A stretch of 64,000 nt of DNA from positions 62,001 through 126,000 of the forward strand of contig NZ_FPAB01000008.1 of the NCBI RefSeq assembly GCF_900116145.1. Reading direction: 5' to 3'. A program made the translations under genes and the position numbers. Positions 38,533-64,000 of the stretch are shown here, in pieces. The stretch's first letter is position 1. Each line of letters begins with the position of its first letter. The notes below the pieces were generated by a model. The model ran no database searches. It was given only the letters and a program-made list of their open reading frames with translations, and was not told the origin of the DNA. The DNA comes from Streptomyces harbinensis (lineage in GTDB: Bacteria; Actinomycetota; Actinomycetes; Streptomycetales; Streptomycetaceae).

Positions 38533-38543
38533 GTGGGAGAGAC

Positions 38544-40358: not shown

Positions 40359-41506
40359 CCCAGGTCGCGCTCGGTATGCCCGCTCCGCCCCCCGTCACGC
40401 TCGCCGCCCGCCGCCCCACCCGCCAGCTGCGGGTGGGTGCGGTCGGGGTCGGCAGCGACCACCCGATCTCGGTGCAGTCGATGACCACGACGGTCACGGC
40501 CGATGTGAACGCCACGCTCCAGCAGATCGCCGAACTCACGGCGGCCGGCTGCGACATCGTCCGGGTGGCCTGTCCGAGCGCCGACGACGCGGCGGCGCTG
40601 CCGGAGATCGCCCGCAAGTCCAAGATCCCGGTGATCGCGGACATCCACTTCCAGCCCAAGTACGTGTTCGCGGCGATCGAGGCCGGCTGCGCGGCGGTGC
40701 GGGTCAACCCCGGCAACATCAAGAAGTTCGACGACCGGATCGCGGAGATCGCCCAGGCCGCCACCGAGCGCGGCACCCCGATCCGGATCGGGGTCAACGC
40801 CGGGTCGCTGGACCCCCGGCTGATGGCCAAGCACGGCCGGGCCACTCCGGAGGCGCTGGCCGAGTCGGCGCTGTGGGAGGCGTCGCTCTTCGCCGAGCAC
40901 GGCTTCCACGATCTGAAGATCTCGGTCAAGCACAACGACCCGGTGGTCATGGTGCGGGCGTACGAGATCCTCGCCGAGAGCTGCGACTACCCGCTGCACC
41001 TGGGCGTCACCGAGGCGGGCCCCGCGTTCCAGGGCACCATCAAGTCGGCGGTCGCGTTCGGGGCGCTGCTGCGCCAGGGCATCGGTGACACCATCCGGGT
41101 GTCGCTGTCGGCTCCGCCGGTGGAGGAGGCCAAGGTGGGCGGGCAGATCCTCCAGTCGCTGAATCTGCGTCCCCGCAAGCTGGAGATCGTCTCCTGCCCG
41201 TCCTGCGGGCGGGCGCAGGTGGATGTGTACAAGCTCGCCGACGAGGTCACCGCGGGTCTTGAGGGCATGGAGGTGCCGCTGCGGGTCGCGGTGATGGGGT
41301 GCGTGGTGAACGGCCCCGGTGAGGCCCGCGAGGCGGATCTGGGGGTGGCGTCCGGCAATGGGAAGGGGCAGATCTTCGTCAAGGGAGAAGTGGTCAAAAC
41401 CGTCCCCGAACACCGCATCGTGGAAACTCTCATCGAGGAGGCTCTGCGGATCGCCGAGGAGCTGGAGCCGGCCGAGGAGGGGTCTCCCACGGTCGTCGTC
41501 GGCTGA
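40355..41506 (+). CDS. ispG: 4-hydroxy-3-methylbut-2-en-1-yl diphosphate synthase
   Basis: This 383-residue bacterial-type IspG (GcpE) carries out reductive ring opening of MEcPP to HMBPP. It has the TIM-barrel N-terminal half ([36 protein letters not shown]). Iron-sulfur cluster ligands lie in SCPSCGR and in [10 protein letters not shown]. The GTG start is coupled to the dxs stop. Together with ispH and dxs it forms a compact MEP-boosting module, facing the terpenoid operon. Confidence 0.97.
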
Positions 41507-41896: not shown

Positions 41897-42538
41897 GTGA
41901 CCACCGACACTACGGTACGCGTGGTGAAAGCAATAGTGCGCGCACCGGATCCGCTCACGTATACGGCTGTCAGTAATCATCTGAACTCAACGGCCGCCGT
42001 CGAGGTGGCCGCCCGGCCCCATCAGGGGCCGGTCGACGTCGCCGTGTTCGTCGCCGAACGGCTGACGGTGGAGGTGATGTCGGCGCTGCGCAGACTCAAG
42101 GAGGCGCTCGGGGTGCCGGTGGTGCTGATCCCCTCGGAGATCGACCGCGCCGATCTGTTCACGGCCGTGGAGTGCAATGTCGTCGCGGTGCTGCCGCGTG
42201 CCGCGGCCACCCACGCCCGGATCGAGGAGGCGGTGCTGACGGCCGCGGCCGGCGGCGGCGTGCTGCCCTCCCGGCTGCTCGGTGAACTGCTGCGCCAGAT
42301 CGAGCGGATGCAGCGCGAGATCCTGTCCCCGTCCGGTCTGCACGCCTCCGGGCTCACGCCCCGCGAGATCGGGGTGCTGCGGCTGATGTCGGAGGGTCTG
42401 GACACCGCCGAGATCGCGGAGCAGATGTGCCTGTCGGAGCGGGCGGTCAAGCGGGTCGTCTTCGGCGTCACCCGGCGACTGAACCTGCGCAACCGCCCGC
42501 ACGCGGTGGCCTACGCGTTACGCAGTGGCGTCATCTGA
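41897..42538 (+). CDS. LuxR-family regulator with degenerate receiver, TTA codon
   Basis: This 213-residue protein has a receiver-like N-terminus and a C-terminal LuxR/NarL helix-turn-helix (LTPREIGVLRLMSEGLDTAEIAEQ, LSERAVKRVV). The receiver is degenerate: the usual phospho-acceptor Asp after the DVxxx strand is Val52, and the late Lys is replaced by LPR. It therefore probably acts as a phosphorylation-independent orphan regulator. The GTG start has TTGGAGG. A TTA codon near the end (42518-42520) makes full-length synthesis depend on bldA. Its 3' end overlaps the convergent terpene cyclase gene by 21 bp. It is a good candidate for a pathway-specific activator of the terpenoid locus. Confidence 0.88.
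   Translation: MTTDTTVRVVKAIVRAPDPLTYTAVSNHLNSTAAVEVAARPHQGPVDVAVFVAERLTVEVMSALRRLKEALGVPVVLIPSEIDRADLFTAVECNVVAVLPRAAATHARIEEAVLTAAAGGGVLPSRLLGELLRQIERMQREILSPSGLHASGLTPREIGVLRLMSEGLDTAEIAEQMCLSERAVKRVVFGVTRRLNLRNRPHAVAYALRSGVI
42518..42520. promoter_or_regulatory. TTA codon of luxR = antisense of cyclase TAA stop
   Basis: On the plus strand these bases are the leucine codon TTA in the LuxR gene, six codons before its stop. On the minus strand the same bases are the TAA stop of the membrane terpene cyclase. Both readings were checked in frame. Confidence 0.85.
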
Positions 42539-43327
42539 CCGCACCCCGGCGGTCGCACGCGAGGCGGGCAACGGCGCCGGCCCGGCACCGGTTCGCGGGA
42601 CACCGGTGCCGGGCGCCGGCGCGCCGAGTGACCACAGCGGCCTGCCCTCCCGGCGCATCGTCCGGCGCAGCAGCACGATGTAGGCGATGTCGAGGGCGAT
42701 GTAGGTCGGCACCAGCACCTGGAGCAGGTGGTGGGAGGGGTAGACGATGACGGCCGTCGCCCCGGCGGCCAGCGACCCGGCGCACTTGACGACGGCGATG
42801 TGCATCGACTGGCCGGCGCTGGAGCCGCGCCGCTTGAGGAGCAGCAGGAACGAGGCGCTCAGCGGCACCTGGATGATCATGCCGGTGTACATGCCGTCGC
42901 GGTCGTGGAGTTCGTTGGCGCCGACGACCACGAGGACCGCCGCCCACACCAGGACGCCGGCCAGCGCCCGGCGGACGGTGCGCGCCGGCAGGGCCGGGTA
43001 GTCGCGCGGCCCGTACCGCATCGCCAGATACAGCAGCGCGAGGTTGAAGACGAACCAGACGAAGTTGATCTGCCGCTGGGTCTCGGTCTGTTCCAGCACG
43101 AAGGTGAGGCTGAACTCCCAGGCGAAGTTCACCGCCACCATCGGGGCGGGGATGGCGGTCAGCCGGTCGCGCAGGGCCACCCGGATGGCCAGGATGTAGG
43201 TGGCCATCCAGCCCAGTGCGGTGGGTCCCGCGACCGACCAGAAGAGCAGGTCGGGGACGTCGGCCGCCCCCTCCGTGACCGGTGCGACCTGCGACATCGG
43301 GATGAGGAAGGGGGGAAGCCAGTCCAT
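42518..43327 (-). CDS. Pyr4/PaxB-family membrane terpene cyclase
   Basis: This 269-residue polytopic membrane protein has about seven hydrophobic segments and a short Pro/Ala-rich tail. It fits the Pyr4/PaxB/DmtA-type transmembrane terpene cyclases. NFAWEF places a Glu at residue 71 and PTYIALDIAYI places an Asp at residue 213, closely matching the catalytic Glu63 and Asp218 described for Pyr4. Other conserved-looking features are GWMATYILAIR and the WFVFNLALLYLAMR helix. Such enzymes cyclise prenyl chains by protonating an alkene or epoxide. It is the last gene of the operon. The ATG has AAGGAC upstream. Assignment rests on motif spacing, hydrophobicity and context. Confidence 0.8.
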   Translation of the reverse strand: MDWLPPFLIPMSQVAPVTEGAADVPDLLFWSVAGPTALGWMATYILAIRVALRDRLTAIPAPMVAVNFAWEFSLTFVLEQTETQRQINFVWFVFNLALLYLAMRYGPRDYPALPARTVRRALAGVLVWAAVLVVVGANELHDRDGMYTGMIIQVPLSASFLLLLKRRGSSAGQSMHIAVVKCAGSLAAGATAVIVYPSHHLLQVLVPTYIALDIAYIVLLRRTMRREGRPLWSLGAPAPGTGVPRTGAGPAPLPASRATAGVRSDDATA

Positions 43328-43372: not shown

Positions 43373-44566
43373 TCAGAGGCTGGGCACGATGGAGTCGAGC
43401 CCGAAGAACGAGCCGCCGTACAGTTCGTGGCCGACCTGCACGCTGAGCGTGGCGTGCCGGGCCGCGGTGTTGGCGTCGCGCCAGTACTGCTGGAGCGGGT
43501 TGGCCTCGGCGAAGGCGGAGGCGCCGTGCGCCCACATGAGTTCGTCCAGCGCGACGGTCACCAGGTTGGCGGCCTGGGCGACATCGCCGCGGATGCGCCG
43601 CAGTTCGCGGTCCGGGAGGGCGACGGCAGCGGCGGCTGCCGCGTCGATGGTGGCCGCGGCGCGGTGGACGTGCATCTCGGCGGCGTCCAGGGTCAGCGCG
43701 GTGCGGCCCAGGGCTGCGACGAAGGCCCCGGAGTCCGGCTGGCTGCGGTAGAGGGTGGGGGTGACCCCCCGGTGCGGGGCCCGCTGTTCGACGACGGCGC
43801 GGGCCGCCTGGCCGGCGCCGACGACCACCGAGGCGCAGATGACGGCCATGGCCGCCACGGCCGGCGAGCGCAGCAGCGGCGGCAGGCCGACGTCGGTGAC
43901 GTGGGCGCGTCCCAGCTGGGTCTCCAGCGGGATGACCCGGTGAGCGGGGACGAACACCTCCCGGGCGACGGCGGTGTGGCTGCCGGTGGCGCGCATACCG
44001 ACCGTGGACCAGGTGTCCTCGACCGTCAGATGGTCGACGGGTACCAGGACGGACACCGCGCGGGCGCTCTCCCCGTCGGGGGCGCTCTCGCGGGCGCTGA
44101 AGATCGCCCAGTCGTCGTGCAGGATTCCGGAGGCGTACGGCCAGGCGCCGGTGAGCAGATATCCGCCGTCGGTGGCGACCACCTGCCCCGGCGCGACGAA
44201 GACCGAGGCGAGTCTGGCCCCGGGCCGGGCGCCGAACACCTCGTCCCGCGCCTCGCGGGGGAAGCGGGTGGCGAGCAGGTTGGAGCCGTTGATGTTGTTG
44301 ACCACCCAGGAGGTGGAGGGGCAGTAGTGGGAGAGCGTCTTGGTGACCTCGCTGAGAGTGCGGACGTCGCCCTCCAGGCCGCCGTACTCCTTCGCGGTCC
44401 ACACCATGCCCACCTGGGAGGTGTCGATGGCGCGCACCGAGGCGTCGGGGAGCCGGCGTTCGCGATCGCCCTCGGCGACGCCGTCGGCCAGCACCGGCCC
44501 GATGGCGTGCACCCGCTCGACGAGTTCCGCGCACAGATCCTTGGTGTCCGCTCGTGCGATCGTCAT
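43373..44566 (-). CDS. Class D flavin-dependent monooxygenase (HsaA/HpaB-like)
   Basis: This 397-residue protein has the acyl-CoA dehydrogenase fold but the features of group D two-component monooxygenases. These include CPSTSWVVNNINGSNLLATRFP, TGAWPYASGILHDDWAIFSA and the C-terminal helix WAHGASAFAEANPLQQYWRDANTAARH. Such oxygenases use FMNH2 or FADH2 from a separate reductase to hydroxylate phenols or similar substrates. No flavin reductase gene is in the operon. It lies between the epoxide-hydrolase-like gene and the cyclase, in the same direction. Confidence 0.87.
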   Translation of the reverse strand: MTIARADTKDLCAELVERVHAIGPVLADGVAEGDRERRLPDASVRAIDTSQVGMVWTAKEYGGLEGDVRTLSEVTKTLSHYCPSTSWVVNNINGSNLLATRFPREARDEVFGARPGARLASVFVAPGQVVATDGGYLLTGAWPYASGILHDDWAIFSARESAPDGESARAVSVLVPVDHLTVEDTWSTVGMRATGSHTAVAREVFVPAHRVIPLETQLGRAHVTDVGLPPLLRSPAVAAMAVICASVVVGAGQAARAVVEQRAPHRGVTPTLYRSQPDSGAFVAALGRTALTLDAAEMHVHRAAATIDAAAAAAVALPDRELRRIRGDVAQAANLVTVALDELMWAHGASAFAEANPLQQYWRDANTAARHATLSVQVGHELYGGSFFGLDSIVPSL

Positions 44567-44576
44567 GAGGTCGCGT

Positions 44577-44969
44577 TCACCGTTCCTCCCGGTCCGAGAT
44601 GAGGCGGGTGATGTCGAAGTAGTCGCGCCAGGCGGCGATCCGGCCGTCCCGCACCTCGAAGGCGGCCATCACCTTGAGGTTGCGGGCGATGGGGGTGCCG
44701 TCGGTGCGCAGCATGTTCTCCGTGCGCTCCATCAGCACGGTGTCGCCTGCGGCGGCGACATGCCGGACGCGCGCCTCCAGGCGGGCGAAGTCGGCCGGCA
44801 TGAGCGCCATGATCTGCTCCTTGCCCACGCACACCGGCGATCCCGGGTTCTCCCACACGCAGTCGTCGGTCAGGTACCGGTCCACGGCCGCCCGGACGCC
44901 CTCCGGGGTGGGGCCCATCGCGGCCAGGAACGCGCGGACGACGCCCTCGCCGTCGCCGGCCCCGCTCAC
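44577..44969 (-). CDS. Limonene-1,2-epoxide-hydrolase-like / SnoaL-fold protein
   Basis: This 130-residue protein has the NTF2-like cone fold. Its C-terminal half (IARNLKVMAAFEVRDGRIAAWRDYFD) is characteristic of limonene-1,2-epoxide hydrolases. In that family an Arg-x-Asp pair plus the Asp of WRDYFD activates water. Here the pair is Arg82-x-Glu84, a conservative Asp-to-Glu change, and WRDYFD is intact (113-119). It may hydrolyse a terpene epoxide or act as a SnoaL-type cyclase/isomerase. The GTG start overlaps the stop of the preceding monooxygenase (GTGA). Confidence 0.83.
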   Translation of the reverse strand: MSGAGDGEGVVRAFLAAMGPTPEGVRAAVDRYLTDDCVWENPGSPVCVGKEQIMALMPADFARLEARVRHVAAAGDTVLMERTENMLRTDGTPIARNLKVMAAFEVRDGRIAAWRDYFDITRLISDREER

Positions 44970-46774
44970 GCCGTCGCCCCGGCGGCGGGGGCGGGGTCCG
45001 GGTGGCCCAGGGCGCGGCGGACGGCGGCGGCCAGCTCGCGTTCGGGGTGCGCGCCGGCCCGGGTGGCGCGCCAGGCGATGTGCTGGTCGGGGCGGACCAG
45101 TACGGCTCCGTCGTCGCCGGTGCCGCGCACCGCCGACCAGGTGCCGTCCTCGTCGCGGAAGCCCGCCGGCTCGTCGGCGGTGCCGACGGCCACCACCTCC
45201 AGCGGTACGCCGTACGCCTCGGCGGTCTCCTTGGCGGCCAGCCGCCAGGCGTCGCCGTCGGGGCCGGTGATCAGGACGAAGCCGCCGGAGCGGCCCACCA
45301 GGTCCTGGGTGCTGAGCCGTTCGGCGCCCCGGGTCAGCCAGGCGTGCGGCAGCCGGTGGCCGGGCCGGGTGACGGGGTGGTGGACGCTGCCCATCGGATC
45401 CAGCGGCGGGCGCGGGGTGCCGTCCGGCACCAGGGCGCCCCTGTCGTAGTGGAAGCCGATCTCGATGTCGTGCGCCTGGTACTCCACCCGCTGGGTGGCG
45501 AAGACCTCCGCCGTTCTGGCCCGCAGGGTGTCACCCATCGGGGTGTCGGCGAACAGCGCGCGGAAGTTGGCCCGGGTGGTCTCGGGCGGCGCGCCGGGCA
45601 TCAGGCCGAGTCCCGCGTGCAGGACGCCGTGGTTGCGGAAGGCGAACATGGCCCATTCCATGGAGCGGCGGGCGACCGGCAGCCGCTCCGACTCGTAGGA
45701 GTCCAGCAGTTCCTCGCCCGCGGTGCCGCCGAGCACGGCTGCCAGTTTCCAGGCGGCGTTGTGCGCGTCCTGCACGGCGGTGTTCAGACCGAGTCCGGTG
45801 GCGGGCGGCTGGCGGTGCGCCGCGTCGCCGGCCAGCAGGACGCGACCCACCCGGAAGGTCCGGGCGATGACGGCCTCGGGCGTGTAGCGGCTGACCTGGT
45901 GCACGGTGACGTCCAGCTCGGGCAGTTTGAGCAGTTCCCTGACCCGGGCGACGGTGGCCTCCTCCCCCAGGTCGAGTTCGATGCCGGCGGGCAGGTGGAA
46001 GTGCAGCGCCCACTCCTGCGAGGCCAGTCCCCAGCCGGGGCCCATGGCGACCATGCCGTAGCGGGAGACGAGGCCGCCGTCCGGGCTGACGAAGTTGGTG
46101 ATGAGCACCTTGTCGCCGCTCCACCACCGGGACAGGTCGGCGCTGAAGTGCACGGAGATGACGTTCCAGGAGCCGCCGTCGCCGTCCATGGTCACGCCGA
46201 GGGTGTCGCCGATGCCGCGTCCGCCGTCCGCGCCCAGCAGATAGCGGGCGCGTACGGTGCGGGTGGTGCCGGTGGCGCGGTCGGTGATCCGGGCGGTGAC
46301 CCCGTCGGCGTCCTGGGTGAACTCCTCCATCAGGTGGTGGAAGCGCACCATGCCGGGGGCCCGCTCCTCGGCGTGCCGGCGCAGCAGCGGTTCCAGGCGG
46401 TGCTGGGGGAGGTTGGTGGAGGGGCACGGGCTGTCGGCCGCGTACGGGGCGGCGGTGCTGCCGCCGCCGAAGGAGTCCATGCGGTGCAGGTCGCGTGCGT
46501 CCAGTTCGCCGTCGCCGGCCAGGGAGGTGCGCCAGGCGACCTCGCTCATGTGGGCCAGCGGGGCGCTGAGCGCGTACACGTCCTCGGCCACGCCGTGCTG
46601 GCGGAAGATCTCCATGGTCCGCTGGTTGAGGTAGTGCGCGCGGGGCAGCACGGAGGTGGACTCGCGCCGTTCGACCAGCAGGTGCCGTACCCCCAGGTCG
46701 GACAGGAAGAGCGAGGCGGTGAGCCCGCAGCCGCCTCCTCCGACGATGAGCACCGGGACTTCTTCGTCAATCAT
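44966..46774 (-). CDS. Class A FAD aromatic hydroxylase (TfdB/MhpA-like)
   Basis: This 602-residue single-component flavin monooxygenase of the PHBH superfamily has the N-terminal FAD motif IVGGGGCGLTASLFL, the NADPH/FAD motif LLGADGGRG and GDAAHRQPPATGLGLNTAVQDAHNAAWKLA. A C-terminal thioredoxin-like extension of about 170 residues is typical of the phenol-hydroxylase branch (dichlorophenol hydroxylase-like). It would hydroxylate an aromatic ring, or perform a Baeyer-Villiger-like or epoxidation step, using NAD(P)H and O2. It lies between the ferredoxin reductase and the epoxide-hydrolase-like gene. Confidence 0.92.
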   Translation of the reverse strand: MIDEEVPVLIVGGGGCGLTASLFLSDLGVRHLLVERRESTSVLPRAHYLNQRTMEIFRQHGVAEDVYALSAPLAHMSEVAWRTSLAGDGELDARDLHRMDSFGGGSTAAPYAADSPCPSTNLPQHRLEPLLRRHAEERAPGMVRFHHLMEEFTQDADGVTARITDRATGTTRTVRARYLLGADGGRGIGDTLGVTMDGDGGSWNVISVHFSADLSRWWSGDKVLITNFVSPDGGLVSRYGMVAMGPGWGLASQEWALHFHLPAGIELDLGEEATVARVRELLKLPELDVTVHQVSRYTPEAVIARTFRVGRVLLAGDAAHRQPPATGLGLNTAVQDAHNAAWKLAAVLGGTAGEELLDSYESERLPVARRSMEWAMFAFRNHGVLHAGLGLMPGAPPETTRANFRALFADTPMGDTLRARTAEVFATQRVEYQAHDIEIGFHYDRGALVPDGTPRPPLDPMGSVHHPVTRPGHRLPHAWLTRGAERLSTQDLVGRSGGFVLITGPDGDAWRLAAKETAEAYGVPLEVVAVGTADEPAGFRDEDGTWSAVRGTGDDGAVLVRPDQHIAWRATRAGAHPERELAAAVRRALGHPDPAPAAGATA

Positions 46775-46847: not shown

Positions 46848-48002
46848 TCAGGGCGGGGTCAGGAGTGCGCGGGCGCCGCGCACGCCGTGCGGGCTGTTCC
46901 AGCCGACGACGCCGACGGGGCGTCCGGCGGTCTCGGCCACCGCGGCGAAGGTCCGGGTGGCCGGGTCGCCCTCGGTCACCCGGAGGCGGTCGCCGGCCGC
47001 CGGATCGCCGAAGACCTGGATCCGTACGCCGTGCTGGTCGGTCCAGAAGTACGGGACGGGGCGGTGCGGGCGGTCGGCGCCGAGGATGTTGCCGGCGACG
47101 GCCAGGGCGCTCTCGGTGGCGTGGGAGCGGTTCTCCAGGCGCAGGGCGCGGCCCTGGCCCTCGTGCCACCAGCGCGCGACGTCCCCGACCGCCCAGACGT
47201 GCGCGGCGGCGCGGCACCGGGCGTCGCACAGCACGCCGTCGTCCAGGGTCAGTCCGCTGCCGTGCAGCCAGCCGGTGGCGGGGACCGAGCCCACGGCGAG
47301 GACCAGGGCGTCGGCGGCGACGGGGCCCTGCGAGGTGAGGACGCCGGTGATCCGTCCGCCGCCGTCGGTGACCGGGGCCTCGGCCTTGGTGCCGGTGAGC
47401 AGGGTGATGCCGTGGTCGCGGTGGAGGCCGGCCAGCAGCCGGGCGACGGGGGGGCCCAGCCGGTCGGCCATCGGGAGCGGCGCCGGGTCGATCAGGGTGA
47501 CTTCGAGGCCGAGGGTCCGGGCGGTGGCGGCGATCTCGCAGCCCAGGACGCCGGCGCCGATCACGGCGAGGCGGCGGGCGGTGCGCAGGTCCGCGCGCAG
47601 CCGCCGGGCGTCCTCCAGGGTGCGCAGGGTGTGCACGCCGGCCGGTCCGTCGAAGGCCGGCAGCCGGCGCGGGGTCAGCCCGGTGGCGAGGACCAGGTCG
47701 TCGTAGCGCAGGCGTTCCCCGTCGGCGAGGGTGATCTCGCGGGCGCCGGTGTCCAGGGCGACGGCCCGCCGGCCGGGCAGCAGTTCGATCCCGAGGGCGG
47801 CCAGGTCGGCGGGCGCGCGCAGGACGGTCCGCTCCGTGCCCCAGGCGCCGGAGAGCACCTGCTTGGACAGCGGGGGCCGGTCGTACGGCGGGTGCGGCTC
47901 CTCCCCCACCAGCCGGACCGGGCCCCGGTAGCCGCGGGCGCGCAGCGCCTGCGCGGTGGCGAGACCGGCCGCGGAGGCGCCGACGACCAGGACACCGTTC
48001 AT
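46848..48002 (-). CDS. NAD(P)H-dependent ferredoxin reductase
   Basis: This 384-residue FAD reductase resembles putidaredoxin/rhodocoxin reductase. It has the N-terminal FAD dinucleotide fold (VLVVGASAAGLATAQALR), PPYDRPPLSKQVL, the NADH-binding fold (RLAVIGAGVLGCEIAA) and the VWAVGDVARW motif. The ATG at 48002 overlaps the ferredoxin stop by ATGA. It should pass electrons from NAD(P)H to the adjacent ferredoxin and on to the P450, giving a complete three-component system within the operon. Confidence 0.95.
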   Translation of the reverse strand: MNGVLVVGASAAGLATAQALRARGYRGPVRLVGEEPHPPYDRPPLSKQVLSGAWGTERTVLRAPADLAALGIELLPGRRAVALDTGAREITLADGERLRYDDLVLATGLTPRRLPAFDGPAGVHTLRTLEDARRLRADLRTARRLAVIGAGVLGCEIAATARTLGLEVTLIDPAPLPMADRLGPPVARLLAGLHRDHGITLLTGTKAEAPVTDGGGRITGVLTSQGPVAADALVLAVGSVPATGWLHGSGLTLDDGVLCDARCRAAAHVWAVGDVARWWHEGQGRALRLENRSHATESALAVAGNILGADRPHRPVPYFWTDQHGVRIQVFGDPAAGDRLRVTEGDPATRTFAAVAETAGRPVGVVGWNSPHGVRGARALLTPP

Positions 48003-48214
48003 GCGGAACCGTCGCGTTCGCGCAGCAGGATGGCGGCGGCCGGGCACAGCAGCGCCGCCTCGCGGACGTGGGCGTACGCGCCGGGCGGCGGGGCGGCGTC
48101 CAGCAGGACGACGACGCCGTCCGTCTCGCGCTGGTCGAACACCTCCGGTGCGGCGGTGACGCAGTGTCCGGCGGCGACGCAGCGTGGTTCCTCGATCTCG
48201 ACCTTGAGGACCAT
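47999..48214 (-). CDS. Ferredoxin, P450 redox partner
   Basis: This 71-residue small ferredoxin has CVAAGHC and a late CP, the ligand spacing of a [3Fe-4S] protein, plus the AAPEVFDQR element seen in P450 partners. It sits between the P450 (20 bp upstream) and the ferredoxin reductase (4-base overlap). It is similar in layout to the ferredoxin at 20,008 but is not identical. Confidence 0.94.
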   Translation of the reverse strand: MVLKVEIEEPRCVAAGHCVTAAPEVFDQRETDGVVVLLDAAPPPGAYAHVREAALLCPAAAILLRERDGSA

Positions 48215-48233: not shown

Positions 48234-49427
48234 TTACCAGGTCACCGGCAGGGTGTTGACGCTGAAGACGAGCGCCGTGGTGCGGTAGTCGATGGCGTCC
48301 GGCTCGACGGCCAGCCGCAGCGTCGGGAACCGGTTGAACAGGGCGGGCAGGGCGGTGCGCAGTTCGGCGCGGGCCAGTTGCTGGCCCAGGCACTGGTGGA
48401 CGCCGTAGCCGAAGGTGATGTGCGGCTGGGGTGCGCGGCGGACGTCCAGGGTGTCGAGGTCGGTGTCGGCCAGGGCGCGGTCGCGGTTGGCGACCAGGAC
48501 CGAGAGCACGACGCGTTCGCCGCGCCGGATCCGCCGGCCGCGGAGCTCGATGTCCTCGGCGGCCTCGCGGGGCATGGTGATGGCGGGCGAGCAGTAGCGC
48601 AGCAGTTCCTCGACGGCGCCGTCGAGGGCGGCGGGTTCGTCGCGGACCACGGCGAGCTGGTCGGGGTGTCGCAGCAGCAGGGTGCTGGAGCAGGCGAGCA
48701 TGCTGGCGGTGGTCTCGTGGCCGGCGACCAGCAGCATGTTGCCGATGCCGATGAGTTCGTCCTCGGTGAGCCGGTCTCCGTGGTCGCGCACGATGGCGCC
48801 CAGCAGGTTGTCGCCGGGGCTGCGCCGGTGGGCGGCGACCAGTTCGCCCATGTAGGCGTCCATCTCGACGAGGTTGGTGATGTGTTCCTCGCGGGTGGCG
48901 TTGACGTCCAGGCCGACCTGGGCGCGGCGCTGGAAGTCCGCGCGGTCGGCGTAGGGGACGCCGAGGAGTTCGCAGATGACGAGGGTGGGGATGGGGGTGC
49001 AGAAGGTGCTGATGAGGTCGGCGCCGGGTCCGGCGGCCGCCAGGGCGTCCAGCCGGCCGGCGACGATCTCCTCGATGACCGGCTGCAGGGCGCGGATGCG
49101 TTTGACGGTGAAGGCGCCGGTGAGCATGCGGCGCAGCCGGGTGTGGTCGGCGCCGTTGTAGTTGAGCAGATTGCCGGGCTGGTTGAGCATGCTGCGCGGT
49201 GCGTCGGGGTCGAAGACGAAGCCCATTTGGAGGCGTTCGTCGCTCAGCAGCGCCCTGGCGTCCTCGTAGCGGGTGACGGCGACGGCCTCGAAGGTGTCGA
49301 GGATGGGGCTGGGGACGTCGACGCGGGAGAGTTCCTCCTCCTTCTGCATCGCGTACAGCTCGGGCGCGGGGGTGAAGGGGCATCCGGCGGCGCGGGCCGC
49401 GAAGGGCAGCACCTGGGGTTCGGGCAT
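48234..49427 (-). CDS. Cytochrome P450
   Basis: This 397-residue bacterial P450 has LLVAGHETTASM in the I helix, EELLRY for the K-helix ExxR, and the heme loop FGYGVHQCLGQQLARAEL. The N-terminus contains the common actinobacterial segment CPFTPAPEL. Stop codon TAA. With the adjacent ferredoxin and reductase it forms a self-sufficient electron-transfer set that should oxidise the terpenoid skeleton. It lies 69 bp after a polyprenyl synthase gene. Confidence 0.95.
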   Translation of the reverse strand: MPEPQVLPFAARAAGCPFTPAPELYAMQKEEELSRVDVPSPILDTFEAVAVTRYEDARALLSDERLQMGFVFDPDAPRSMLNQPGNLLNYNGADHTRLRRMLTGAFTVKRIRALQPVIEEIVAGRLDALAAAGPGADLISTFCTPIPTLVICELLGVPYADRADFQRRAQVGLDVNATREEHITNLVEMDAYMGELVAAHRRSPGDNLLGAIVRDHGDRLTEDELIGIGNMLLVAGHETTASMLACSSTLLLRHPDQLAVVRDEPAALDGAVEELLRYCSPAITMPREAAEDIELRGRRIRRGERVVLSVLVANRDRALADTDLDTLDVRRAPQPHITFGYGVHQCLGQQLARAELRTALPALFNRFPTLRLAVEPDAIDYRTTALVFSVNTLPVTW

Positions 49428-49496: not shown

Positions 49497-50528
49497 TCAG
49501 AAGCGGCGGCCGACGACGAACCGGGCGAGTTCCAGGAATTCCTCGCGCGGCGCGTCGGCGATGCCGGCTCCGTCCAGGCACTCCCGGGCCGCCGTGATCC
49601 GGCGGTCCGCCTCCGTGCGGGCCCAGTCCCGGCCGCCGGCCCGCTCCACGAGGTCGGCGACGCGCCGGACCTCGGGCTCGGTCAGGGGCGCGGAGCGCAG
49701 GTACAGGGCGCGCAGTTCGTCGCTTCCGGGTGCGTTCAGGGCCGCCACCACGGGCAGGGACTTCTTGCGGACCCGCAGGTCGGCGCCGACCTGTTTGCCG
49801 GTGCGGTCCGGGTCGCCCCAGATGCCCAGCAGGTCGTCGACGAGCTGGAAGGCGAGGCCGATGTGTTCGCCGAAGGCGGCCAGCCGCTCGACGCGGGCGG
49901 GTGCGGCTCCCACCAGGGCGGCGCCCAGGGAGCAGGCGCAGCCGAGCAGGGCGCCAGTCTTGTCCCCGGCCATCCGCACGCATTCGGGGAGCGTGACGTC
50001 GTCGCGCCGTTCGAAGGCGACGTCGGCGCTCTGGCCGCTGATCATCCGCTGGGTGGCGGTGGTCAGCCGGGTGGCGGCCGGGCGGGCGCCGGGCAGCGGG
50101 GCGTCCAGCAGGGCGCTGGTGGCGGCGGCTGCCATCGCGTCGCCGGCCAGGATGGTGTGCGGGACGCCGAAGACGGTCCAGGCGGTGGGGCGTCCGCGCC
50201 GGGTGGTGTCGCCGTCCATGATGTCGTCGTGGAGCAGTGAGAAGTTGTGGACGAGTTCGATGGCGACGGCGGCCGGCAGACCGTCGGCCACGGTGCCGCC
50301 CGCCGCCCGGGCGGAGAGCAGGGCGAGGGTGGGGCGGAGCAGTTTGCCGCCCCGGGTGCCGGTGGGCCGGCCCTCGGCGTCCGCCCATCCCAGGTGGTAG
50401 TGGGCGATGTGCCGCAGGTGGGGGTGCAGTTGGCGCTGTACGGTCTCGCGCAGGGCTGCTTCGAGCCCGGCCCGCTCGGTGTCCGGGCGCGCCGGGGCGG
50501 GGGCGGTGGAGGCGGGGGTGGCCGTCAT
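49497..50528 (-). CDS. Polyprenyl diphosphate synthase (probable GGPP-type)
   Basis: This 343-residue trans-polyprenyl synthase has both aspartate-rich motifs: FARM LLHDDIMDGDTTRRG and SARM FQLVDDLLGIWGD, followed by GK and the KKSLPV lysine. The fifth residue before the first DD is Phe, with no FARM insertion, a pattern associated with short-chain (C15-C20) products of archaeal-type GGPP synthases. Product length is inference. The ATG at 50528 is chosen because the frame further upstream is a shadow of the fusion gene. Substrates IPP and DMAPP would come from the ispH-dxs-ispG module. Confidence 0.92.
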   Translation of the reverse strand: MTATPASTAPAPARPDTERAGLEAALRETVQRQLHPHLRHIAHYHLGWADAEGRPTGTRGGKLLRPTLALLSARAAGGTVADGLPAAVAIELVHNFSLLHDDIMDGDTTRRGRPTAWTVFGVPHTILAGDAMAAAATSALLDAPLPGARPAATRLTTATQRMISGQSADVAFERRDDVTLPECVRMAGDKTGALLGCACSLGAALVGAAPARVERLAAFGEHIGLAFQLVDDLLGIWGDPDRTGKQVGADLRVRKKSLPVVAALNAPGSDELRALYLRSAPLTEPEVRRVADLVERAGGRDWARTEADRRITAARECLDGAGIADAPREEFLELARFVVGRRF

Positions 50529-50595: not shown

Positions 50596-52599
50596 TCAGG
50601 GCGTGGGCAGGTCGCGCGGGGTGGGCACGGGGGTGCCCAGCAAGGTGCGGCGCAGCACCCGGGGTGAGGTGAGCAGGGTGCGGGGCGGGGCCAGCAGGAA
50701 GAGCACGTCCCGGTTGGCGGTGCACACCACCGGGTCGCCGGGGACGTGGGCGCGCACCCGGTCCAGGTAGCGGGTGAGCAGCCGGGCGGTGGGGCCGGTG
50801 CGGACCGCGTTGCCGGTGGCGCCGGGCATGGGGCTGTCGGCGCCGGTGGCGACGTCCCAGGCGGGGGCGGCGGCGCGCAGGGCGGCCCGCTGGAGGGTGT
50901 GCGCGGTGGGCGTGCGCGGGGCGGCCAGGGCGCGGGAGAGGGCGAGGGCGGTGAGCGCGGCGACGGACAGGCCCTGTCCGTAGACGGGGTTGAGGGCGCA
51001 GGCCGCGTCGCCGACGACCAGGAGGCCGCCGTGGTCCCGGCCGAGCCGGTCGTAGCGGCGGCGCCGGTTGGCGGTGTGCCGGTAGCCGACGGGGCGGCCG
51101 GCCGGGTGGGCCGTACTGAGCCAGGTGTGCGGGGCGGGGTGCGGCAGCCGGTGGGCGAACTCGACGAACGCCTCCGGGTCATTGGGCGGGGCCATGTCCC
51201 GGGGGCCGGAGAGGGTGACCGTCCAGCGGCCGTCCTCGACGGGCATGACGATCGCCCCGAGCGGTGCGGTCGCCTCGGGGACGATGTAGAAGCCTCGGAG
51301 GCCGCGGGGCGGCGCGTCGCCGTCGAACAGGCAGCTGGCGTAGGCGCGTCCGGTCTCCAGGACCTCCTCGGCGGGCGGGGTACCGCCCAGTGCGGCCAGC
51401 CACTGGGGGGTGCGGCTGGCGCGTCCGGTGGCGTCCACCACGAGGTCGGCGGCGAGTTCGCGCGGGGCGGGATCGCCCGTTCCCCGCTCGCGCAGGGTCA
51501 CGCCGGTGATGTGTCCTGGCCGGCCGAGCAGCCCGGTGGCCTCGGTCCCGGGGCGCAGCCCGATCGCGGGGTGGGCGAGGACGAGCCGGCGGATGTGGTG
51601 TTCGAGGACGGGGCGGGTGGGGCTGAGGATGGGGGCGGACGGGTTGCGGCGGGAGATCCACTGCCCGCCCTGCCAGACGCCGACGTCGCCGGGGACCGCG
51701 AGCCGGGGGGCGCCGGCCGCCGCGAGTTCGGGGGCGAGGCCGGGGAGCAGCCGGGTGAGCGCGTCGATGCCGCTGGCCAGCAGGATGTGGGTGTGACGGG
51801 ACTGCGGGACCCCGGGGCGGGGGGCGGGGTGGTCCTCGATCCGGTCGCGTTCCAGGATCGTCACCCGGTCCGCGTGGTCGGCGAGGACGTACGCGGTCAG
51901 CAGTCCGGCCACGCTGCCGCCCAGGACCACGACGTGGCCCAGCCGGGCGGCGGGCGCGGTGGCCGGGCCGGACGGCGCGGGGCGCGGCGGCGCGGCGTGC
52001 GGCGTGGTGTCCGGCGTGGTTCCCGGTGCGGCGTGCGGGGTGGCGGCCGGTACGGCGTCCGGCGGGTTCTCCAGCCGGGAGGCGAGGAAGCGCCGGCCGG
52101 AGGTGGCGCCGGTGCCGGGCTCGTCACCGAGCATGTGCGCGACCAGGTCCAGATGGGTCGCGCGCCAGCGCCGTACGGCCGCGTCCAGCGCGCCGGACCG
52201 GTCGCCGTCCGGGTTCCCGGTGAGCCGCGCGGTGAGCGCGAACAGTTCGCGGAACTGCTCGGACTGGAGCCCGCTCGCGGTGCCGAAGCGGTCCCGGAAG
52301 GCGAGGAAGTCCTCCCGCCGCAGGGTGCGGCGCAGCAGGGTCAGCTGGCCCTCCAGCGCGCCGATCAGCCGGACGGCCCGGTCGGTGCGGTGGGCCCGGC
52401 AGGCCGGTCCGCAGGGGCCGGCGTCGAGGTGCCGCAGGTCGACGAGGACCTGGCTGAGCAGGGTCTCGGACGCCTGGTGGACGACGATGAACAGCCGCTC
52501 GCTGTCGCTGAGGTCCCGCTGCTCCCGGGGGGTGAGGGGGACCTGGAGCGCGAGGAGTTCGTCCAGGCGCAGGTACGTCGCGTAGGTGGGGGAGGTCAT
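50596..52599 (-). CDS. Fusion: trimmed tryptophan 2,3-dioxygenase + FAD monooxygenase
   Basis: This 667-residue protein joins two oxygenase families. Residues 5-176 resemble heme-dependent tryptophan 2,3-dioxygenase: TYATYLRLDELLALQ, FIVVHQASE (His41, equivalent of distal His55), FRDRFGTASGLQS (Arg102, equivalent of the carboxylate-binding Arg117) and WRATH with PGTGATSG (His149, equivalent of the proximal heme ligand His240). Roughly 75 residues found between the last two motifs in normal TDO are missing. A Pro/Ala/Thr-rich linker (about 178-218) leads to an FAD monooxygenase/epoxidase domain: VVVLGGSVAGLL, VVDATGRASRTP, VVGDAACALNPVYGQGL. The ATG has GAGGAG upstream. Neighbours suggest a terpene epoxidase role for the FAD half; the heme half implies an indole substrate or heme-peroxo chemistry. 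Confidence 0.85.
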   Translation of the reverse strand: MTSPTYATYLRLDELLALQVPLTPREQRDLSDSERLFIVVHQASETLLSQVLVDLRHLDAGPCGPACRAHRTDRAVRLIGALEGQLTLLRRTLRREDFLAFRDRFGTASGLQSEQFRELFALTARLTGNPDGDRSGALDAAVRRWRATHLDLVAHMLGDEPGTGATSGRRFLASRLENPPDAVPAATPHAAPGTTPDTTPHAAPPRPAPSGPATAPAARLGHVVVLGGSVAGLLTAYVLADHADRVTILERDRIEDHPAPRPGVPQSRHTHILLASGIDALTRLLPGLAPELAAAGAPRLAVPGDVGVWQGGQWISRRNPSAPILSPTRPVLEHHIRRLVLAHPAIGLRPGTEATGLLGRPGHITGVTLRERGTGDPAPRELAADLVVDATGRASRTPQWLAALGGTPPAEEVLETGRAYASCLFDGDAPPRGLRGFYIVPEATAPLGAIVMPVEDGRWTVTLSGPRDMAPPNDPEAFVEFAHRLPHPAPHTWLSTAHPAGRPVGYRHTANRRRRYDRLGRDHGGLLVVGDAACALNPVYGQGLSVAALTALALSRALAAPRTPTAHTLQRAALRAAAPAWDVATGADSPMPGATGNAVRTGPTARLLTRYLDRVRAHVPGDPVVCTANRDVLFLLAPPRTLLTSPRVLRRTLLGTPVPTPRDLPTP

Positions 52600-52628: not shown

Positions 52629-53618
52629 TCACACCAGGCGACCCGGCACGGTGAGGTCCTCCAGGGCGTCGCGGTGCGGGCCGGGCGGCAGGGTCTCCAG
52701 GGCCGCCGTGGCCTGCTGGACGTGACGGTGGGACACCTCCCGTGCCGCCTGCACCCCGTCGTGGGCGTGCACCAGGTCCGACATGGCGGCGTAGCGCTCG
52801 GCGGCGGGTGCGGCGGTGTCGGCGAGCAGTCGTTCGATGTGCTGTTGTTCGGCACGGGGGGCGCGGGCGTGGGCGAGCAGCACCGGGAGGGTGGGGCGCC
52901 CGTTGCGGACGTCGGAGATGTTGGGTTTTCCGGCCCGGGTGCCGTCGTAGGGCATCAGGTCGTCGCGGATCTGGTAGGCGATGCCCAGCTGGTCGCTGTA
53001 CCGGCTGAGCGCCTGCAGCGCGGTGTCGTCGGCGCCGCCGAGGGCGCCGCCCACGCCGCAGGCCATCCACAGCAGGGCACCGCTCTTGTCCGCGATCATG
53101 TCGAGGTAGGAGGGGACGGGGCAGATCTCGCGGCTCATCCGGATCTCCCGGATGGCCGCGTCGCCGATGCGCAGGCCGGCCCGGGAGAGGATGGCCAGGG
53201 CCTGGGCGACGCGGTCGGCGGGGGCGCCGGCCTGCCGGCACTCCGAGAGGGCCGCGAAGCCGTGGAAGAACAGTCCGTCGCCGCCGACGATGGCGCTCTG
53301 CCGGCCGAACACCGAGTGGGCGGCGGGTTTGCCGCGCCGCTGGGTGTCGCTGTCGATGATGTCGTCGTGCATCATCGCGCCGACCTGGACGCACTCCAGG
53401 GCCACGGCGGCGGGCAGGGCGGTCGCCAGATCGCCGCCGACCGCGAGGCTGGAGCGGATCAGCAGCCAGGGGCCCATCATCTTGCCGAAGGGCACCAGTC
53501 CGTACCGCACCACTTCGTCGAGGCCCGAAACGCCGAGCGGCCAGCGGCCCTCCACCTCGGCTCTCACCATGGCGGCCACCTCGGGATCGGCGACCTGGGG
53601 CACATCGATGTCGGTCAT
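52629..53618 (-). CDS. Polyprenyl diphosphate synthase (second)
   Basis: This 329-residue protein is the first gene of the minus-strand operon. It has the FARM AMMHDDIIDSDTQRRGKP and the SARM YQIRDDLMPYDG, with the KSGALLW lysine segment between them. The residue five before the first DD is Gly rather than an aromatic. That loosens the chain-length floor, so its product may be longer than that of the other synthase, or the two may act as partners. The ATG at 53618 follows a 17-bp direct repeat region. Both catalytic Asp motifs look intact. Confidence 0.9.
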   Translation of the reverse strand: MTDIDVPQVADPEVAAMVRAEVEGRWPLGVSGLDEVVRYGLVPFGKMMGPWLLIRSSLAVGGDLATALPAAVALECVQVGAMMHDDIIDSDTQRRGKPAAHSVFGRQSAIVGGDGLFFHGFAALSECRQAGAPADRVAQALAILSRAGLRIGDAAIREIRMSREICPVPSYLDMIADKSGALLWMACGVGGALGGADDTALQALSRYSDQLGIAYQIRDDLMPYDGTRAGKPNISDVRNGRPTLPVLLAHARAPRAEQQHIERLLADTAAPAAERYAAMSDLVHAHDGVQAAREVSHRHVQQATAALETLPPGPHRDALEDLTVPGRLV

Positions 53619-53701: not shown

Positions 53702-53745
53702 TGATCCGGCGGCCCGGCCGGGCCCGTGGGCGGTGCGCCGGATCA
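53702..53745 (-). terminator. Hairpin terminator after LAL regulator
   Basis: Arms TGATCCGGCG and CGCCGGATCA pair perfectly and enclose a second 12-bp palindrome GCCCGGCCGGGC. The hairpin begins within the regulator's stop codon and separates it from the terpenoid operon promoter. Confidence 0.65.
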
Positions 53746-56487
53746 GGCGGTGGTCAGCCGTCCGCTGAGGCTGGCGGCGGCGAGTTCGACCCGGGAGCGG
53801 CAGCCGGTGCGGGCGAAGAGCCTGGTCAGATAGTGCTCGACGGTCTTCTCGCTGAGGGCGAGCCGCTGCGCGATCTGACGGTTCGTCAGTCCGGCGCCGA
53901 TCAGTTCGACGATGCGCCGCTCCGTGTCGCCGGCCGCCCGGCGCCGTGCCCGGGCGCGCGGGGCCGGTACCCCGCGCTCGCGGGTCACCGCGCGGATGCG
54001 CTCCAGCAGCACGGCGGCGCCGCAGCCGGTCGCCAGGTCGTGGGCCTCGCGCAGCCAGGGCCCGGGGTCGTCCGCGAACCGGGCCACCACCGGCGCGGAT
54101 TCCAGCAGCAGGGACCGGTCCCCGCGCTCCCGGGCGAGATCGGCGGCCACCCGGGCGTGCACCACGTCCCGGCCGGCCAGGGCGCGCGCCAGATGGACGC
54201 TCTCGGTCAGCCGGGGACGGCCGTCCTGGCGGTGCAGCCGCTCGGTCTGCTCCAGCAGCTGACCGGCGGCCTCCGGGTCCTCGGCGTACGCGGCGATCCC
54301 CACCGCCCGTGTCAGCAGCCGGTCGAGGCAGGCGTGCCGGCCGGCCCGCTGCAGTCGCCGGGAGACGTGCCGGGCGTGCCGGATCGCGCGCCGGTGCTGG
54401 CCCATGTGGTGGTACAGGCCGGTCCTCGCCCAGGCGCGCAGGCCGGCGAGCCGGGGGGCGGGTGCGGCGGCGGCCAGCCACTCGGCGGCCTGCCGGAACT
54501 CGCCCCGGGCGGCGCAGATGTCGGCGGCGAACAGCCGGGCGGCATGGTGCACCAGGGTGTCGGCGGGCCCGGACAGCTCCAGTTCGCGGACCGCGGACAT
54601 GGCCCGGGACCAGTCGGCGGCCCGGTGGCTTCCGACCACCCGGCGGTAGGCGCCCAGCACGCCGGTGTCCGGGAGCCGGTAGCGGGCGCCGAGGACGATG
54701 TGGAACACCGTGGCCACATCGACCACCGCCGCCGCCGCGCACAGCCGGTCGAGGTCGGCGCACGGCGCGGGACGGCCGGTGGCGCGCCAGGCGCGGGCGC
54801 AGGCGTCGGCGTCACCGGACAGCGCGGCCTGCACCACCTCCATCTCGTCCGCCGCCAGGAACCCCGGCACGCCGATCCAGCGCGAGGGCGCGGAGCCCCG
54901 CGGCACGCCGGGGCCCGACTGCCGGGCGCCGAACCACCACTCGGAGAAGCCGGTCCTGCCGGGTCCGGGCAACTCCTCGTCCAGCAGCGCCCGGACGCTC
55001 TGCCCCACGGGCGGCTCCCCGGTGTGCAGTGCCACGAGCATCGCGGCGGCCCGGGTCTGGGCGCGCGGGTCGAGGGCCCCGGGGGACCCGTCCGGCTCGG
55101 TGGCGCCGGCGATCGCCTCCCGCAGCAGTTCGTACTGCCCGGTGCGCAGCACCAGGGTGAGCAGCCGGTTGAGGACCCGGGTGTGCTCCGCCCCGCCGGG
55201 CGGCAGCCGGTGCAGGACGGCGGCGCACAGCAGGGCGGCCCGCCGCGGTTCCTCGCGGGCGGCGGCGCCCGCCAGGTCGAGCAGCCGCGCGGTCATGTCC
55301 GCGCCGGGCGCCAGCGCCGTGCTGCCCCGGGCGATGTGGTCCGCGAGGGCCACCGAGTCCACCGCGGCGTCGCGCCGCTGACGGGCCAGCAGCCGTTCGG
55401 CGATCGCGGCGTGCAGCCCCGCTCCCCGGAACACCTTGGTGCGGTCGACCGCGGCGGCGGCCAGGGCGGGACAGCGGCAGTGCACCCGGCCCGCCGGGTC
55501 GGCCACCAGTACGCCCGCCTCGATCAGCCGGTCCAGGGTCCGGCCACAGGCGGTGAGTTCGGCGCCGGCCGTCTCGGCGAGCAGCGGCAGATCGTCCACG
55601 CTGACCCCGTCCCAGGCGGCCACCGAGGACAGCAGCCAGGGCGCGAGCGGGCCGGCCTCGGCCACCCGCGCCAGCAGCGGATGGCCGGCGGGCAGCGCGA
55701 TCGCCTCGGCGGGCGCGCGCAGACACAGCCGGCCCCGGAAGACGGTCAGCCGGTCGCCGCGCTGGAGGTCGGCGAGCGTGCCCAGCAGGGTGCCGGGATC
55801 GGTGAACAGCGGCCCCAGCGCGGCACGGAGCGCGGCCTCCGCCGCCTCGTCCAGCCGGGTTCCGGCCGCCCGGCGCAGCAGCGCGAGGGCGTCCCCCTCG
55901 GCGAGCGGGCCCAGGGTGAGCACCCGGTCGGCGGCGGTGCGCAGTTCGGCGGTCCCGGGATCGGGCCCGGTGTCCTGCCGGCAGGTGGCCAGCACCGGGA
56001 AACCGCAGCGGCGGGCCGCGGTGAGCAGCGGTGCGGGCTCGGCCACCAGGTGCGCGTCGTCGGCCAGCAGCGCGGTACGCCCGCCCCGGGCGAGCCGGTC
56101 GAACAGCACACCGAGTTCGGTGACCATGGACGGCGTCCAGCCACCGGCGTCGCCGCCCCCGGCCTGGGCCAGCCGCGCCACCGGGGTGAGCGAGTCGGCC
56201 AGCCCCGCGTCGGCGAACGCCTCGAACCGGTCGCGCACACTGTGCACCAGCGAGGCGATGCCGTACCGGTCGGCACCCGGCTCCACGGGGGCTGCCCCGA
56301 ACCGTACCGGCAGCACCCGCAGCCCCTCCGCCCGCAGCGAGCGCCCCACCGCGTCCAGGACGGCGGATCTGCCGATACCGGCGGGGCCGCGCAGGACCAG
56401 CAGGGAGCCCCGGCCGGTCATCAGCGCCGTACGCAGCGCGGCCACGTCACGGTCCCTGCCCTGCAAACGGCTACGGTCTCGGGCCAC
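53743..56487 (-). CDS. LAL-type LuxR regulator with altered Walker A
   Basis: This 914-residue large ATP-binding LuxR (MalT/LAL) regulator has an N-terminal NTPase-like domain, a long helical middle part and a C-terminal LuxR helix-turn-helix (TERRIVELIGAGLTNRQIAQRL, LSEKTVEHYLTRLF). The P-loop reads GPAGIGRS, with Arg where the Walker A lysine belongs, and the Walker B region is LLADDAH. The GTG at 56487 has AGGAGG upstream; the longer open frame is not protein-like. It lies immediately upstream of the terpenoid operon and is divergent from a paralogue, so it is a likely activator. Confidence 0.9.
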   Translation of the reverse strand: MARDRSRLQGRDRDVAALRTALMTGRGSLLVLRGPAGIGRSAVLDAVGRSLRAEGLRVLPVRFGAAPVEPGADRYGIASLVHSVRDRFEAFADAGLADSLTPVARLAQAGGGDAGGWTPSMVTELGVLFDRLARGGRTALLADDAHLVAEPAPLLTAARRCGFPVLATCRQDTGPDPGTAELRTAADRVLTLGPLAEGDALALLRRAAGTRLDEAAEAALRAALGPLFTDPGTLLGTLADLQRGDRLTVFRGRLCLRAPAEAIALPAGHPLLARVAEAGPLAPWLLSSVAAWDGVSVDDLPLLAETAGAELTACGRTLDRLIEAGVLVADPAGRVHCRCPALAAAAVDRTKVFRGAGLHAAIAERLLARQRRDAAVDSVALADHIARGSTALAPGADMTARLLDLAGAAAREEPRRAALLCAAVLHRLPPGGAEHTRVLNRLLTLVLRTGQYELLREAIAGATEPDGSPGALDPRAQTRAAAMLVALHTGEPPVGQSVRALLDEELPGPGRTGFSEWWFGARQSGPGVPRGSAPSRWIGVPGFLAADEMEVVQAALSGDADACARAWRATGRPAPCADLDRLCAAAAVVDVATVFHIVLGARYRLPDTGVLGAYRRVVGSHRAADWSRAMSAVRELELSGPADTLVHHAARLFAADICAARGEFRQAAEWLAAAAPAPRLAGLRAWARTGLYHHMGQHRRAIRHARHVSRRLQRAGRHACLDRLLTRAVGIAAYAEDPEAAGQLLEQTERLHRQDGRPRLTESVHLARALAGRDVVHARVAADLARERGDRSLLLESAPVVARFADDPGPWLREAHDLATGCGAAVLLERIRAVTRERGVPAPRARARRRAAGDTERRIVELIGAGLTNRQIAQRLALSEKTVEHYLTRLFARTGCRSRVELAAASLSGRLTTA

Positions 56488-59464: not shown

Positions 59465-64000
<4,536 letters not shown>

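Follow-up and report, generated by a model that had tools for sequence, protein, structure and literature searches.

A minimal HDAO domain fused to the predicted epoxidase of a xiamycin-type gene cluster in Streptomyces harbinensis

Gene content of the locus

The window, that is, the whole 64,000-nt stretch of Streptomyces harbinensis DNA analyzed here, carries a minus-strand gene group that is identified by its XiaF ortholog, Pyr4-like cyclase, and K-L-M core as a xiamycin-type indolosesquiterpene cluster (Table 1). The terpene operon with a Pyr4-like cyclase described in the original prediction was confirmed by the PF25129 match. In the parts of the published accounts that were available, the xia cluster (Streptomyces sp. 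HKI0576 / SCSIO 02999) shares with the window the XiaF ortholog, Pyr4-like cyclase, LEH-like protein, FAD hydroxylase, and P450, and also the gene order of the K-L-M core block. The pathway is already known: it is of the xiamycin type, with the fusion gene at the published xiaL position, and from this position we infer that the fusion is the xiaL counterpart.

Published roles in the xia cluster include those of xiaE (cyclase), xiaF, xiaG (LEH-like), xiaH (flavoenzyme), and xiaJ (P450), with xiaE, xiaK, xiaL, and xiaM as the scaffold genes (PMC5481743, in part). XiaE is a membrane cyclase, and epoxide protonation takes place in xiamycin biosynthesis (PMC6173783, in part). In the portion of a review that was available (PMC10884874), indole-3-glycerol phosphate and a prenyl diphosphate yield 3-farnesylindole, then epoxy-3-farnesylindole, and then preindosespene, and a TDO-type step goes unmentioned in this early-step scheme. 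XiaH is another strain's name for the xiamycin cyclase, which falls in one of the two largest bacterial Pyr4-like cyclase groups (PMC13307353, 2026); that paper reports a different, TPP-dependent indole rearrangement, and its main text has no mention of a TDO-fused epoxidase. Unlike the window, with its fusion, the available parts of the xia cluster accounts leave a TDO-like domain unmentioned, and no job for one in the xiamycin pathway was given in the literature searched, to which the original XiaL/XiaO papers did not belong.

Elsewhere in the window, large plus-strand ORFs at 6-18370 resembled NRPS genes, as judged by eye from their translations, and CRISPR-associated genes on the minus strand at 59465-62965 (CRISPR_assoc, Cas5, CT1975-like, and Cse2) suggested a type I-E system.

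Table 1 Features of the fusion gene and of the surrounding cluster, in window positions
Feature	Position	Strand	Basis
Fused HDAO-like / FAD epoxidase protein, 667 aa	50596..52599	-	xiaL counterpart by gene order
Minimal HDAO (TDO-like) domain, residues 1-180	52060..52599	-	PF03301; AlphaFold2; TDO/MarE fold
His41 codon (XcTDO His55, distal)	52477..52479	-	H in 19/19 xia-type rows
Arg102 codon (XcTDO Arg117)	52294..52296	-	R in 19/19 xia-type rows
His149 codon (XcTDO His240, proximal heme ligand)	52153..52155	-	H in 19/19 xia-type rows
Pro/Ala/Thr-rich linker, residues 181-218	51946..52059	-	Low confidence in structure model
FAD monooxygenase domain, Lsd18/MonCI epoxidase type, residues 219-667	50599..51945	-	PF01494; PDB sequence search; motifs
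Polyprenyl-synthase-fold protein, presumed indole prenyltransferase (xiaM position)	52629..53618	-	PF00348; directly upstream in 18/18 xia-type loci
Prenyl diphosphate synthase (xiaK position)	49497..50528	-	PF00348; directly downstream in 18/18
Cytochrome P450 (xiaJ position)	48234..49427	-	PF00067
Ferredoxin	47999..48214	-	PF13370
Ferredoxin reductase	46848..48002	-	PF07992, PF14759; NCBIfam under cut-off
FAD aromatic hydroxylase (xiaH position)	44966..46774	-	PF01494 (E 4.9e-98), PF21274
Limonene-epoxide-hydrolase/SnoaL-like protein (xiaG position)	44577..44969	-	PF07858 (E 1.9e-19)
XiaF ortholog (flavin indole hydroxylase / terpenoid cyclase)	43373..44566	-	PDB 5lvu (E 5.2e-184 over 397 aa)
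Pyr4-like transmembrane terpene cyclase (XiaE type)	42518..43327	-	PF25129 (E 3.3e-27)
IspH, DXS, and IspG genes beside the cluster (isoprenoid precursor supply)	37540..41506	+	PF02401, PF13292, PF04551
Large LuxR-type (LAL-like) regulator, upstream of operon, start uncertain	53743..56466	-	PF00196, PF13191

Architecture of the fusion protein

The fusion ORF is complete, with 667 open codons from the ATG at 52599 to the stop at 50596 and a GAGGAG 8 bases 5′ of the ATG; the plus strand has a stop in the same frame. The predicted union of a heme-dioxygenase domain and an FAD monooxygenase domain across a Pro/Ala/Thr-rich linker was borne out. At the N-terminus, PF03301 (Trp_dioxygenase, Pfam) matched in two stretches, residues 5-119 and one further C-terminal stretch (E 1.9e-23, 83.8 bits against a cut-off of 34.9), and residues 4-119 matched TDO in a PDB sequence search (best E 5.7e-12). 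At the C-terminus, PF01494 (FAD_binding_3) covered residues 223-566 (E 2.1e-9), and the closest PDB relatives were the polyether epoxidases Lsd18/LasC (residues 223-665, E 3.5e-64) and MonCI (residues 218-643, E 3.7e-64). The FAD motifs GD, D-A-[TS]-G-R (DATGR), and NPVYGQG, held in common with Lsd18/LasC and MonCI, were present in all 19 xia-type rows save for single substitutions. By this homology and these motifs, the C-terminal domain is classed as an Lsd18/MonCI-type FAD epoxidase. Lsd18/LasC and MonCI resemble only the C-terminal part of the fusion (218-665, E about 1e-64), so that the HDAO domain is an addition in the window; these relatives function without such a domain, and the presumed substrate in the window, a farnesyl chain on indole, differs from those of the polyether epoxidases.

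The full-length AlphaFold model had a pTM of 0.60, with low confidence in the mutual placement of the two domains, and the linker varied from 30 to 106 aa across nine fused proteins. A frameshift, an assembly join, or a pseudogene is an unlikely source of the fusion, the two halves lying in one frame in 8 of 18 other clusters and in neighboring genes in the remaining 10. No plasmid record covered 80% of the fusion protein, and a promoter/terminator scan returned nothing useful. A defense role was rejected because PADLOC gave zero matches.

The HDAO domain

Residues 1-180 were modeled by AlphaFold2 as a helical domain (pLDDT 85.9, pTM 0.81) with helices at 28-60, 65-92, 95-105 (lid), 114-127, and 135-157. 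The model was closest to human TDO (VIA-align Z 15.9, rmsd 2.7 over 175), Xanthomonas TDO (Z 15.8, rmsd 2.2 over 170), and MarE (Z 15.0, rmsd 3.0 over 173), with IDO at a Z of about 12-13; the predicted TDO/MarE fold included the heme-pocket residues.

A residue-by-residue alignment to XcTDO (2nw7) equated H41, R102, and H149 with XcTDO H55, R117, and H240, the three key TDO positions that had been proposed. This alignment identifies R102 as the equivalent of XcTDO R117; window residue 117 was rejected as the conserved Arg, being variable (R in 5, K in 5, H in 5, Q in 2, S in 1, and one other). The distal His of TDO and MarE contacts the indole N, and the Arg of TDO binds the substrate carboxylate. 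Invariant in the 19 xia-type sequences were Y6, Y9, F37, H41, F101, R102, S109, W145, R146, and H149, and position 163 was T or S throughout. The window domain thus resembles XcTDO and human TDO in heme ligand, distal His, Arg, both N-terminal Tyr, and fold, but differs from TDO in its Arg-to-His spacing, its GTGG loop, and the changed Trp 47 and Glu 120.

Between R102 and H149 lie 47 residues, as compared with 123 in XcTDO and 94-120 in 24 other TDO-like rows; the shortfall of 76 relative to XcTDO agrees with the roughly 75 residues first estimated. The missing stretch falls in the αF/αG region, which is absent from the window domain. MarE is also reported to lack αF and αG, and the element common to the HDAO superfamily is a four-helix core with a lid (PMC11904535, in part). 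In the predicted structure, this core and its lid helix were kept. Because the missing stretch is the region that MarE also lacks and the core with lid is retained, the N-terminal domain is, on the model, a minimal HDAO and not a damaged TDO. The earlier view of it as minimal rather than decayed was upheld. MarE, a 2-oxindole-forming HDAO, shares with the window domain the fold, the core with lid, and the shortened αF/αG region; MarE differs in being a protein in its own right, roughly 280 aa long and with β-methyl-tryptophan as substrate, whereas the window domain is fused to an epoxidase.

The name TDO proved too narrow, and only the wider assignment to an HDAO/TDO-type domain stood. Against TIGR03036, the NCBIfam TDO equivalog, the fusion scored 70.7 bits, well under the cut-off of 390.7. 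The loss of αF/αG sets it apart from TDO sensu stricto, as does the substrate loop, which is GTGG[ST] in TDO sensu stricto and GTGAT in the window. The ELW(F/L)K motif was altered in the xia-type domain, and the positions at which it differed consistently from 24 other TDO-like proteins included 47 (W to L), 48 (F to L), and 120 (E to F). The last G of GTGG was replaced by E, D, Q, A, or N in all 19 xia-type sequences, giving GTG[E/D/Q/A/N]T as opposed to SLGGR in MarE (PMC11904535, in part). The fourth residue was therefore kept in 0/19 xia-type sequences vs. 24/24 other rows, and GTGG was kept in all 54 readable sequences among 56 further TDO-like proteins. This comparison marks the loop change as a trait of the xia-type group. 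Among 17 Streptomyces cluster HDAOs, the loop was readable by script in only 4; by eye, it was GTGAT in L052 and GTGGT in L039. With the fourth GTGG residue lost throughout the xia-type set, free tryptophan is an unlikely ligand. The domain was also rejected as a housekeeping TDO, a separate full-length TDO being encoded in the same genome (contig C15).

Distribution and conservation of the HDAO-epoxidase pair

The N-terminal 180 residues were searched against one genome per species (84,980 species), and the best 80 of 193 relatives were kept. Neighborhoods were examined for the best 24 loci (L056-L079; L080-L135 were left out), with genes called by a home-made GC-frame script that gives approximate starts; L079 had no predicted genes. 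Eighteen of these loci were xia-type, with 53-74% identity to the window in the HDAO domain, and the loci that followed among the 24 held TDO-like genes of 30-41% identity in other settings. The order prenyltransferase, HDAO, epoxidase, prenyl diphosphate synthase was found in all 18 xia-type loci, even where other cluster genes lay elsewhere or on the opposite strand. A search for homologs with the same domain order had been proposed as a check, and these 18 clusters supply fusions (8/18) or adjacent pairs (10/18). At four split junctions, the stop of one gene and the ATG of the following one were 11-14 bases apart.

The TDO domain was itself the query that brought up the 18 clusters, and its presence in them is partly by construction; two of them lie on contigs that also belong to genomes G288 and G133, which were covered in the whole-genome searches. 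A co-occurrence test free of that bias comes from XiaF, which was not searched for via the TDO domain. XiaF (E ≤ 1e-90) occurred in 3 of 392 Streptomyces genomes, and the same three genomes were the carriers of an epoxidase of >53% identity and of the TDO-epoxidase pair. Epoxidase relatives of up to 53% identity were widespread, with matches at E ≤ 1e-60 in 284 of the 392 genomes. No TDO-like neighbor was present at 51 non-xia epoxidase loci from the Streptomyces and class samples (L139-L189, with L190 left out; flanks of at most approximately 1.5 kb each).

Of 171 pairs, the 12 with the least divergence gave dN/dS values of 0.23-0.58 (HDAO domain) and 0.27-0.44 (epoxidase). The HDAO domain evolved faster (median pN 0.282 vs. 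0.193), and these values indicate purifying selection on it, with less constraint than on the epoxidase. The fused state required two changes on the epoxidase tree, in which the window epoxidase grouped weakly (88/82) with split Streptomyces genes. This pattern may have arisen by one fusion followed by a split or by two fusions, and the tree fits both.

Role of the HDAO domain

That the fusion is the epoxidase of a xiamycin-type pathway is highly probable. From its family, its gene order, and the published scheme, the FAD domain would epoxidize the terminal alkene of 3-farnesylindole, and ring closure by the Pyr4-like cyclase would follow. The HDAO domain, a TDO core without αF/αG, probably binds heme, given the kept ligand. 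Its fixed place between prenyltransferase and epoxidase, its fusion in half of the clusters, and its kept indole site make a part in the early indole and epoxide steps reasonably likely. The domain would take hold of the prenylated substrate, or of its precursor, by the indole and present the terpene tail to the FAD domain, a hand-over in cis in the window fusion and in trans where the HDAO is a separate adjacent gene. We tentatively favor this overall reading, a heme-binding, indole-holding partner of the epoxidase, at a little short of even confidence. Its weakest part is the preference for mainly holding over oxygenating, which is possible but not quite probable; it rests with modest confidence on the published intermediates, in which the indole stays intact. 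The holding role is weakened by the faster evolution of the HDAO domain, the variable linker, and the uncertain domain placement. Arg102 is invariant although 3-farnesylindole has no carboxylate, which also counts against it, and the surprising retention of the full active-site set, with every tested heme-site residue invariant, disfavors a pure holder. One bold possibility is that an acidic loop residue (E or D in 14 of 19 xia-type sequences) pairs with Arg102, which would suit a carboxylate-free ligand; the window has Ala in this position, which argues against such pairing as a general rule.

An active heme oxygenase on the indole ring, by MarE-like monooxygenation or TDO-like cleavage, seems unlikely. 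Tryptophan, indole, or a prenylindole would be the substrate, in a side branch or a xiamycin step so far unseen. The tested heme and indole residues are all kept (19/19), the domain is under purifying selection, and MarE is active despite its missing αF/αG (PMC11904535, in part); however, the indole remains intact through epoxy-farnesylindole and preindosespene (PMC10884874 and PMC5481743, both in part), its later hydroxylation is performed by a separate flavin enzyme, XiaF, in the published portion available, and the GTGG loop is altered in 19/19. The original suggestion that indole oxidation is coupled to terpene epoxidation keeps the support of the 19/19 residues and fits poorly with the intact-indole scheme (PMC10884874, in part).

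Somewhat less likely again is a mainly structural domain that uses TDO-type dimer or tetramer contacts to assemble the epoxidase, or to tie it to the neighboring prenyltransferase and synthase, with heme and indole binding as relics. TDO and MarE are tetramers whose N-terminal tyrosines reach the neighboring subunit (PMC11904535, in part), and Y6 and Y9 are invariant here; drift would be expected at a relic site, yet the residues at H149, H41, and R102 do not vary in 19/19. Equally doubtful is a two-cofactor (heme and FAD) oxygenase, in which the HDAO heme site would oxygenate or activate the indole and the FAD site would epoxidize the tail of the same molecule, and it is kept alive by the invariance of every tested heme-site residue. 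If true, it would mean a hidden heme-dependent step or branch in xiamycin-type pathways, overlooked because its product was never sought. A domain that helps make the prenyl acceptor, with tryptophan or an indole precursor as its substrate ahead of prenylation, would suit the gene position between prenyltransferase and epoxidase (18/18) and the kept Arg102 (carboxylate-binding in TDO) but is very improbable, since the proposed acceptor, indole-3-glycerol phosphate, needs no oxygenase (PMC10884874, in part).

What is new is a conserved, unexplained HDAO module in a known pathway, apparently unremarked; it would be ordinary if the original xiamycin papers already describe it. Xiamycins serve as a well-studied model for the indole-terpene chemistry of bacteria. 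If the xiamycin epoxidase is always paired with an HDAO-type domain, the early pathway is short of one component and reconstitutions that omit the domain may be incomplete. The pairing would show an HDAO core reused as a flavoenzyme partner, and with it either a heme oxygenase put to use without oxygenation or a novel oxidation of indole.

Other HDAO-family genes

Stand-alone minimal HDAOs of 194 aa, 46% identical to the window domain, were found outside xia clusters in two Streptomyces genomes (L038:18945-19529 and L039:9485-10069), so the fusion is not alone in having a domain this small. GTGG was kept in both, in one as read by script and in the other by eye. Neighbors in L038 included a methyltransferase gene, and those in L039 included genes for a periplasmic binding protein and a molybdopterin oxidase. 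Three further TDO-like matches, 43-44% identical, came from 394 genomes of the class. HDAO genes also occurred in clusters different from xia at L052:9319-10044 (241 aa) and L054:9339-10046 (235 aa), beside a halogenase-like gene, P450s, a UbiA-like gene, and a prenyl synthase (partly named by eye); L054 additionally held copies of IspG, DXS, and IspH. The genome of the window carries a third HDAO-family gene on the minus strand near a contig end (C12:249154-250236, equal to L045:9154-10236; 360 aa, PF03301 over residues 162-253). It adjoins O-methyltransferase and P450 genes and might, as a guess on our part, belong to a tyrosine-type HDAO pathway of the SfmD-like kind.
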